NCBI GenBank assembly: GCA_905221605.1
Contig: CAJNDS010002203.1
Location: forward strand, 51,001-115,000
DNA from: Symbiodinium natans
Lineage: Eukaryota; Sar; Dinophyceae; Suessiales; Symbiodiniaceae
DNA: 64,000 nucleotides
Reading direction: 5' to 3'
Numbering within the stretch: position 1 is the first letter of the stretch; each line of letters opens with the position of its first letter. This document shows, piece after piece, positions 9,868-12,800 of the stretch. The position numbers and the translations under genes were made by a program. The notes below the pieces were generated by a model, which made no database searches, had not been told where the DNA came from, and saw only the letters and a program-made list of their open reading frames with translations.

Positions 9868-12800
9868 CTACTCCAAACCCATCCGCTTCGCATCACAGAG
9901 AAGGGTTCGACACGAGGCAGCGGGCGCCGGCGTTGCCTTGAAGGGGACTGAAGGAGGGACCCTTAGAGAGTCCCTAAACCCTCAACCCTAAACCCTTCAA
10001 TTAAGGAAACTTAGGGTTGATGCAGGAGCTACGAAGACATTTAGGGACTATGTAAGGTATATATCGGGGTTTTGTTTATAGGGGAAGAAGATTACAGAAA
10101 TTGAGGGTTCTTGCAGGGGTCCCTCCTTATGCCTGGTTGTAGAAGATCAGGAACCATTGCAGTACGGAAAACATGCCAACGGACAAGGTCCACAGCAGCC
10201 ATGTGGGAGTTGCGCCGCTCGTGCCGAGCGCCACTGCGTTGCCCCCATTTATGCCCAGCAGCGCGAAGGCATAAAAGTATGCAAGAAAGGTGCTCGCTGC
10301 CGCAAAGCAGGCGTGCGCGCAAGGCGATCGTGTGCGTTTGAAGCCCCAGTGTTGTGCATGTAGGATACATGGGAAGATGATGGTCAATGACAAGCAGCTG
10401 AAGAACATCGTATCAATGTCCACGAGTAGGAGGGTCCTGAAGGAGTCAAAGCCTTCCGCCTTAAGTGCAGCAGCACATCCGCCCAGTCCATCGCAATCCA
10501 AGAAGCATGAGGAGCAAATGTAGAAGAAGAAGGGTGCAAATGCCTGCGTGCAGACCGACAGCGGCAAACTTGTGGCACTGCCAGATTGCCGTATGATTTC
10601 GGTGCGCAACGGTCCTCGGACTTCCATGTTGAAAGCGTCCAAGCTCTCCTCTTGGCTAGGATAGCTTGTTAGGCCACGGATAACAGGGTCTCTGATGATC
10701 TCCGCGTGGGCCAATAGCTGGTCACTGTCCTGTCTGCTAACAGCAGCTGCAGCAGCGACCTCTGGCACCTCCACAGCCACAGATATCCTTGGTTGCTCTT
10801 TGACCCCCCCAATAAAAGTTCAACTTCTAGCTCCCTTAATATGAAATTAGAGGAACCCCAAGACTCAGAAAATGCGAAAGTTGTAGTAAAGTCCCACCTA
10901 GTATCGGTAAGTCGTCAATTTCATCGTACAGCTGGGCAATCGTTGCCTCAATGATGGGCCGATCTGCGCCGACTGTGCACTTGGCGTAGCGCACGTCGAA
11001 AGAAGCAAGCCGCTCCAACATCTCTCCATGCTGCTTCAGCTTCATTGAAAACGAAATTGCCGCCGCAACTCCCGCTGGGAGGTAAGCACATCCCGTAACT
11101 AGAGTGTATAAAAGCACCCGCAGCAGAGCTTCCAGGTGCGGATAGGAAGCGGGCAGTGGCAGATTTAGAAAAAAGCCCTGTGCCCAACCCAGAAGACGAA
11201 AAACGAGGCATCGAACGCTCACCCAGTCGAAGAGCACGGCAAGGAGTAGCCAGGGCGGAAGCCACAGCGGCAACACGACAAGGTGGCGGCCGGACTGGTA
11301 CTTCAAGAAGACAGCCAGCTCCATGTTGCAGAACAGGCGCTCAAAGTAGGTCGCGTCCCATAAAACGAGCCTAGACTCCACTTAGAACCTTCATAAAAAT
11401 GATATTGTTAAAATCCTCTTGGGTTTTAAATATAAACAAAATTATAGAACAGTTCCAAAGGGGGATGTAGGAGCATGGTGGAACATCGCTGCACGAAATC
11501 CGGCAAAGCCCTGACGTACTTCTCCTTGATGGCCTCATCTCCTCCACACTTACCCTTAAGACCTTAAGAAAAAGAGTCCGTTGGAACTTTAGGGTTTAGG
11601 GTTTAGGGTTTACAATACACAATACTTCCTAAGGGTGGCTTTATATAGTCCTTGCGGAATGCACAGCTTGTCCACCCAGATGGATGGGGAAAGGCATCCA
11701 CAGGTCAGGACGTGGCCGAAGAAGAACCTACACTCCCTCTTAGAACCTGAAGAAAAATCATAATACTTGGTTTAAGGTTTAGGGTTAAGAATGATAGTAA
11801 TAATATTACTGTTAATCTGAATGTTCCCTTGGATTTTTATAACTAAAAACAAAAAATAACTCCTACGAAGGCTTTAGGAACATCAGGAAAAAGACCGTCA
11901 AGGGCAAGTCCACGGTCAGCGGGTAAATCAAGGGGCTGCCTGCCAACTGTGAGACGCTGCCCGCATGCAAAAGCAACATGACGGCTGCCGCCGCATAGGT
12001 GAACATGGATGCAGTCACCGCCAGCGTGTAGTTCAGATGATAGCCTAGACCCAGGAGTAGCCTAGAAATAAAAAAGGGTGCCCTTTTTCGTTTAAAGGGG
12101 TTGATAGGGGAACACAAGTACTAAAAAAGGGAATGAGGGCCTACTCTGGATCCTAGCAGCAAAGCCCCAAGGTCTTCTGCCATCGCCCTGCGGACCAGGA
12201 TTGGCTCACGAAAAGATCGACTCGAGGGGCTTCCTGGCCCGGTGGAGACCGGTCCCCGGCGGAGCAGTCCTAGGGCCCAACAGTACCCGACGAAGCAAGA
12301 GGGAGCCTATAGGAATAAGAGGGGAGCCCTTTTGGGTTAACAGGGGTTTTATCAGGCCGACCCCCCCCCCCCCCAAAAAAAAAAAAACAAAAAAAAAATA
12401 AATATATATATATATAGGTATATATATATATATTAATAAAATTAAAAAAGAAAAGAAAAGAACAAGGACACCCTAAACCGTAGACCCTAAACCTTAAACC
12501 CTAAACAGCAAGCACCAGTCTGAGTCCTAGAATCCCCCCGCTCCACGGCGAAAACCTGGCCAAGCCCGTCGAGGACCTGCCAGGAACTCACCGCACGGAG
12601 CCCGCGGGTCGGGAGGTGACGGAGCTCTGTGTGAAACCTTGGTAGCGCAGCATGCAGTTTAGGGTTTAGGGTTTAGGGTTTAGGGTTTAGGGTTTAGGGT
12701 TTAGGGTTTAGGGTAGCTCTCTATCTTCTTAGGGTAGTTCCATGGTCCCTTAATATGGGCCCTTAAACGCGGTTTACCCTATACAACCCAAGGGTCCAGA

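Follow-up and report, generated by a model that had tools for sequence, protein, structure and literature searches.

A trio of paralogous genes

The window, that is the whole 64-kb stretch of DNA that was analysed, carries three paralogous copies of one gene on the minus strand (Table 1). Exons were joined at hand-set splice sites, open frames were counted from the first definable exon, and the three-copy alignment spans 2,802 columns. The dN/dS ratio between the gene copies is 0.24-0.26, and the reading frame therefore appears to be under selection. For the protein of copy 1, a HET domain (16.8 bits vs. a Pfam cutoff of 22.5) and a TIR_2 domain (15 vs. 28) scored below threshold, and a viral-contig search with 258 of its residues gave 12 pattern matches, none of which was confirmed as a relative. 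Neither Rfam at gathering scores nor ARAGORN gave a match across the window.

Telomere-type words are frequent: TTTAGGG, described as a dinoflagellate telomere repeat (PMC11453091), occurs 386 times in the window and CCCTAAA 505 times. These words and the predicted GC and GA donors of the introns described below would fit a dinoflagellate. A search for the spliced leader, allowing up to 3 mismatches, found no match. Very many of the telomere-type repeats are interstitial (e.g. 12655-12714 and 12850-12952), and in copies 1 and 3 intron I5 contains such repeats as well. Elsewhere in the window, three very similar small genes or open frames (MAPAPVEVVEVEPVTDD...) lie at 22430-23131, 45057-45617 and 46300-46860 (minus strand), the first of them without a Pfam match, and at 57903-58601 there is a simple repeat, of CCTT/TTCC type on the plus strand, in which several frames are open on both strands.

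Table 1 Predicted features of the gene trio and of related elements in the window (slashes mark the borders between duplicated target and element)
Feature	Position	Strand	Remarks
Gene copy 1	10127..12269	-	spliced part 520 codons, 5' end left undefined
Gene copy 2	15783..18004	-	spliced part 539 codons
Gene copy 3	38319..40597	-	spliced part 520 codons
I6, copy 1	11371..11474	-	104 nt; GCTC/CTAC...TCTAG/GCTC
I6, copy 1, duplicated GCTC	11474-11471; second copy 11370-11367	-	element 11470-11371 (100 nt)
I6, copy 3	39563..39665	-	103 nt; element 39661-39563 (99 nt)
Empty I6 site, copy 2	17079..17082	-	one GCTC within open coding sequence
I4, copy 1	11728..11881	-	duplicated GTTC, GT-AG, ends resemble I6
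I4, copies 2 and 3	17319-17497; 39933-40084	-	
I5, copy 1	11542..11650	-	predicted GA-AG
I5, copies 2 and 3	17150-17241; 39733-39855	-	
I7, copy 1	10798..10897	-	GT-AG, control intron
I7, copies 2 and 3	16511-16609; 38990-39089	-	
I2, copy 2	17868..17984	-	GTCT/CTTGGCAGCC...GCAAAG/GTCT; family B MITE, element 17868-17980
I2, copy 3	40454..40577	-	family B element 40454-40573, duplicated GTCT
Empty I2 site, copy 1	12246..12249	-	one GTCT
I3, copy 1	12045..12160	-	family C element 12156-12045, flanks GCTG/GCTA
I3, copies 2 and 3	17661-17774; 40248-40360		family C elements; intron in all three copies
Family B MITE outside the gene	9121..9235	+	duplicated ACAT; duplicate near 37294-37409
Family B MITE outside the gene	4331-4441		duplicated ATAT

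An insert in two of the three copies

The initial annotation had pointed to a 103-104 bp insert in copies 1 and 3 (I6) where copy 2 is uninterrupted, and the three-gene alignment bears out both its lengths and its coordinates. The site reads ATG-CTC, and both inserts are flanked on either side by GCTC, the 4-nt duplication that had been proposed; copy 2 has this motif once. The element starts with CTACATCCCCCTTTGGAACTG in copy 1 and CTATATCCCCCTTGGGAACTG in copy 3, and its opposite end, reverse-complemented, reads CTAGACTCCACTTAGAACCTT. The inverted ends had been called imperfect, and without gaps they match at 13 of the first 20 positions, a value equalled by 11 (copy 1) and 12 (copy 3) of 20,000 base shuffles. 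When gaps were allowed over 24 nt, the score was equalled by 116 of 5,000 shuffles for copy 1 and by 1,478 for copy 3, and because of this weaker result the inverted repeat by itself is modest evidence. The duplication and the inverted ends, combined with the empty site, are far stronger evidence than the inverted ends alone.

Excision of I6 as a GC-AG intron keeps a long open frame in copies 1 and 3, with the junction at the same position as in copy 2, while retention brings an in-frame stop into each of them. As the inserts differ in length by the one nucleotide between 104 and 103, the unspliced copies would moreover be read in different frames. The GCTC repeat permits several equivalent cut positions, only one of which yields a GC-AG pair (by inspection). 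We infer GC-AG splicing of I6 from the reading frame, and the proposal that the duplicated GCTC supplies the GC donor and the element end the TAG acceptor is supported by these tests. RNA folding of I6 was unremarkable (z -1.27 and -1.51). When the inserts of copies 1 and 3 are aligned, there are 6 differences in 103 positions and one gap.

Possible relatives of I6 within the gene

An nhmmer search with I6 of copy 1 reached I4 of copy 2, which lies two introns upstream of the I6 site, at E 0.00079 and, weakly, the I4 introns of the other two copies (E 0.96-2.9); the reverse direction was weak, with E 0.39 and 0.41 from I4 of copy 2 to I6 and 2.1 and 3.1 from I4 of copy 1. In local alignments with I4 of copy 2, the score was reached by none of 2,000 shuffles for I6 of copy 3 and by 2 of 2,000 for I6 of copy 1, and the alignment of I6 and I4 of copy 1 was reached by 1 of 2,000, base shuffles being a lenient control for such AT-rich sequence. 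I6 and I4 have the end GAGTSTAG in common. I4 has a perfect 4-bp repeat (GTTC), a GT donor and a TAG end, and its predicted GT-AG splicing follows the same plan as that of I6. Its inverted ends, ungapped, match at 12 of 20 positions in copy 2 (equalled by 39 of 20,000 shuffles) and are at chance in copies 1 and 3, with 8/20 (3,943 and 3,563 of 20,000 shuffles); with gaps they are weak, being equalled by 933 of 5,000 shuffles for copy 2 and 3,607 of 5,000 for copy 1.

I4 of copy 1 and I4 of copy 2 are identical at 116 of 149 aligned positions, with many gaps. In the same pair of genes the likeness is 89-100% for the exons and 90-95% for introns I5 and I7, I4 changing much faster. An origin of the two I4 introns as separate insertions was considered and rejected, since they align throughout and share both the duplication and the ends; I4 is treated here as what appears to be one fast-changing intron.

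I5, modelled as a GA-AG intron to preserve the frame, may be a distant member of the same family. The local alignment of I6 of copy 1 with I5 of copy 2 reached a score found in 3 of 2,000 shuffles, and the gapped inverted ends of I5 were equalled by 7 of 5,000 shuffles in copy 2 and 1,136 of 5,000 in copy 1. A search from I5 of copy 2 to I6 of copy 3 gave E 2.2, and I5 has no clear 4-bp repeat. In the control intron I7 both the 4-bp duplication and the inverted ends are absent (7/20; 4,014 and 4,074 of 20,000 shuffles).

Within the window, the likeness of I6 and I4, and perhaps of I5, is confined to the one gene and its paralogues, bar one partial likeness. The latter is at 2913-2802, with a duplicate at 30961-30852 (minus strand), where the interior of the I4 intron from copy 1 is matched at E 0.0056 and 0.00045, respectively. 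The matching part of the query holds telomere-type words; the stretch at 2913-2802 also reads TATATTTATACACCCAAGAG and GGTTCTGGAGGAGACTACAG, which resemble the middle and the end of I6. This pair, located within the two copies of a large duplication, could be a further member of the I4/I6 family.

A presence/absence intron from a different family

Scanning for inverted ends next to 4-bp duplications also brought up I2, an insert in copies 2 and 3 whose elements read, along the gene, GTCT/CTTGGCAGCCCAG...CTGGGCTGCAAAG/GTCT; its site is empty in copy 1. Taken as a GT-AG intron, its excision keeps the frame in copies 2 and 3. The inverted ends are strong, matching at 13 of 20 positions and equalled by 3 and 4 of 20,000 shuffles, and RNA folding is strong for the I2 intron of copy 2 (z -4.73). 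A strong hairpin is thus not common to I6 and I2.

The family to which I2 was assigned (family B) gave 24 nhmmer matches at E up to 10, of which 15 were below 1e-4, both I2 copies included. Seventeen places were inspected, some with guessed ends, and five of them have a 4-bp duplication with inverted ends matching at 10 or more of 16 positions: the two introns (AGAC when read on the plus strand), the two duplicate elements with ACAT and the element with ATAT (Table 1). The remaining 12 have no 4-bp duplication with inverted ends above 8/16. A 4-bp target duplication is seen at I6 (GCTC), I4 (GTTC), I2 (GTCT) and the family B loci with ACAT and ATAT.

Intron I3 is present in all three copies and contains elements of a further group (family C). 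The gapped inverted-end score of copy 2 was reached by 2 of 5,000 shuffles; the flanks share GCT and then mismatch once, and the duplication of family C is therefore imperfect. Two donors lie 3 nt apart, either of which keeps the frame (by inspection), and the flanks favour the outer one. Outside the gene, five stretches match family C at E below 1e-7, two of them being a duplicate pair. The profile of family C finds members of family B at E 0.0012-0.002, and that of family B finds members of family C at E 0.032-0.11 (nhmmer); the two families are not clearly unrelated.

Controls for chance

The scan for duplications with inverted ends gave 202 raw hits, 176 of which remained after a composition filter. 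Most came from a TA-rich stretch at 55.3 kb, and some are evident chance hits, e.g. 10402-10691 in coding sequence. Large duplications also occur twice in the window, one pairing 247-12714 with 27905-41010 and the other pairing 15851-22951 with 38324-45578. Their aligned copies differ in length by 35 nt or more at 15 places in the first pair and at 6 in the second. A 4-bp repeat together with inverted ends matching at 13/20 or more was found at two of these 21 differences, namely the I2 element in the first pair and the I6 element in the second, both located at predicted introns of the trio gene. One further difference, which scores 18/20, consists of a TA repeat and shows a repeat of 3 bp, and among the remaining 18 there are 13 that hold at least four telomere-type words.

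History of the gene copies

At fourfold sites, copies 1 and 3 differ by 3.4% (9/266), while copy 2 differs from these two by 11.4% (28/246) and 11.7% (29/248). The divergence of I6 between copies 1 and 3 (6/103) is of the same order as their fourfold-site divergence, as would be expected if the insert predates the split of copies 1 and 3.

Two findings extend the initial annotation: the second presence/absence intron, of another family and with another pattern, and the mosaic make-up of copy 3, which combines stretches like copy 1 with stretches like copy 2, judged from diagnostic sites. In alignment columns 301-800, the 5' part upstream of I4, copy 3 is like copy 2 at 44 diagnostic sites and like copy 1 at 4; outside this block it is like copy 2 at 18 sites and like copy 1 at 158 (counts exclude columns with gaps; Fisher p 2e-27, for a block picked after viewing the data). 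Either copy 3 would have received a block resembling copy 2, or the block of copy 1 would have been replaced. In a mosaic copy the presence of an intron follows local ancestry, and the patterns of I2 and I6 are discordant because I2 falls inside the converted or recombined block. The surroundings of I6 are uniform: the eight diagnostic columns listed between 1291 and 1639 all follow the gene-wide pattern, and columns 1364 and 1534, located 50 before and 17 after the insert, separate copy 2 from copies 1 and 3.

The two large duplications overlap at gene copy 3, the left flank of which is that of copy 1 and the right flank that of copy 2, as if by unequal crossing-over.

Gain or loss of I6

Our reading of I6 is that of an introner, a MITE-like element that most likely inserted into the shared ancestor of copies 1 and 3 once copy 2 had split off, and we give it a probability of roughly 0.77. 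With its length of about 100 bp, at which coding for a transposase is impossible, the element would be a non-autonomous DNA element, and a transposase would presumably have driven its insertion into the exon at ATGCTC, with duplication of 4 bp (GCTC). The upstream GCTC would then give the GC 5' splice site, and the ...TAG end of the element the 3' splice site. With the donor from the duplication and the acceptor from the element, splicing would remove one copy of the duplication plus the element and so restore the message exactly.

The duplication and the inverted ends indicate that I6 arose by insertion at some time, and would fit a copy 2 that was once filled as well as one that was always empty. 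Between gain and exact loss, left undecided in the initial annotation, the evidence upholds an insertion origin and favours gain without proving it; we regard gain as quite probable. Copy 2 does keep other introns, as had been stated, and the retention of the neighbours I5 and I7 argues for gain over loss. The diagnostic columns on both sides of I6 speak against a long conversion tract from a cDNA resembling copies 1 and 3. Excision of a cut-and-paste transposon usually leaves a footprint of extra bases, and gain is favoured also because ordinary excision from copy 2 would usually have left one.

Exact loss, which we consider unlikely, would start from an insertion-derived I6 in the ancestor of all three copies and remove it from copy 2, either through recombination of copy 2 with a cDNA of its own transcript or through a deletion running from one 4-bp repeat to the other. 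A comparison of three copies without an outgroup cannot polarise the change, as a precise loss and a site that was never filled look identical, and the conversion-like block in copy 3 shows that sequence exchange acts on these genes. Nevertheless, a loss would have had to spare I5 67 nt upstream and I7 473 nt downstream, and the diagnostic differences close by on either side rule out a long tract derived from copy 1 or copy 3, leaving the need for a very short one. The same converted or recombined block might point to gene conversion from an unseen paralogue as the source of the filled or of the empty I6 site, a scenario that overlaps with the other readings and is compatible with an insertion origin. 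We hold it to be improbable, as no block boundary occurs among the eight diagnostic columns around I6.

It is hardly credible that I6 is merely an old intron of the usual kind, or an insertion that is not spliced, with duplication and inverted ends due to chance. The inverted ends are indeed imperfect, their gapped test is weak for copy 3 (see above), and the blind scan does yield false hits; against this stand the exact 4-bp repeat with its exact empty site and a reading frame that splicing restores and retention breaks. Further arguments against chance are the similar ends of I4 and the I2 insert, which repeats the design cleanly within this gene; we retain the reading of an insertion into the shared ancestor of copies 1 and 3.

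Elements as a probable source of introns in the trio

I6 would represent a clean before/after case of intron making, in which the target, the duplication, the element and the restored message are found within a single 64-kb stretch. Two families, discordant patterns in one gene trio and relatives of family B outside the gene make a transposon origin plain, and the discordance of I2 and I6 suggests that new introns are redistributed among paralogues by gene conversion.

A more general scheme, which we put forward tentatively and with more doubt than confidence, is that two or three MITE families make introns here, with ends CTAnA..., CTTGGCAGCCC... and CTAGRnCCAG..., a duplication of about 4 bp and an AG end, and that conversion spreads or erases them. 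An element that ends in AG along the gene would form a removable intron at once when inserted with a duplicated target starting in GT, GC or GA. The families with ends CTTGGCAGCCC... and CTAGRnCCAG... are weakly alike in their interiors, and the two may share an origin. If the scheme is true, most introns of a gene in this host may be such elements, and conversion between tandem paralogues would copy or erase introns, so that their presence would spread both by conversion and by transposition.

Comparison with known introners

Micromonas and Aureococcus reportedly harbour introners of the MITE type, said to have been described by Huff et al. in 2016 as short DNA elements with terminal inverted repeats and target duplications that become introns. 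I6 resembles these in being such a short element; they belong to other lineages.

In Amoebophrya, introner elements are described with direct repeats of 3-5 nt at their borders and inverted repeats inside, features for which Farhat et al. 2021 compare them to non-autonomous TIR transposons (PMC7789003). According to the same account they occur mainly among introns with non-canonical splice sites (PMC7789003), whereas the introns considered here are predicted to be GC-AG, GT-AG and GA-AG, and the inverted repeat of I6 is imperfect. Non-canonical sites of the Amoebophrya type, outside GT-, GC- and GA-AG, were not found among the predicted splice sites of the trio. Introns of Prorocentrum cordatum are likewise said to be enriched in introner elements (PMC10666404).

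Among 3,325 eukaryote genomes, Gozashti et al. 2022 reported introns derived from introners in 175, with enrichment of introners in genes in 161 of these; most families leave the length of the message unchanged, and GC and GA donors are reported among families, some of which have up to 50% GC donors (PMC9860276). The introners that they describe in Symbiodinium microadriaticum have a 4-bp target duplication and terminal inverted repeats, the 3' splice site coming from the element and the 5' splice site from the duplication (PMC9860276). I6 is like them in all these respects, as far as a comparison by description and with predicted splicing can tell (PMC9860276). The study of Roy et al. 2023, as summarised, holds that introners drive recent intron creation in dinoflagellates, with many families per genome (PMC11453091). 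I6 would agree with these in kind, as a candidate recent intron in a gene with more than one element family. The mechanism is thus already described for dinoflagellates; new here is the occurrence of two discordant insertions, from two families, within one gene trio.
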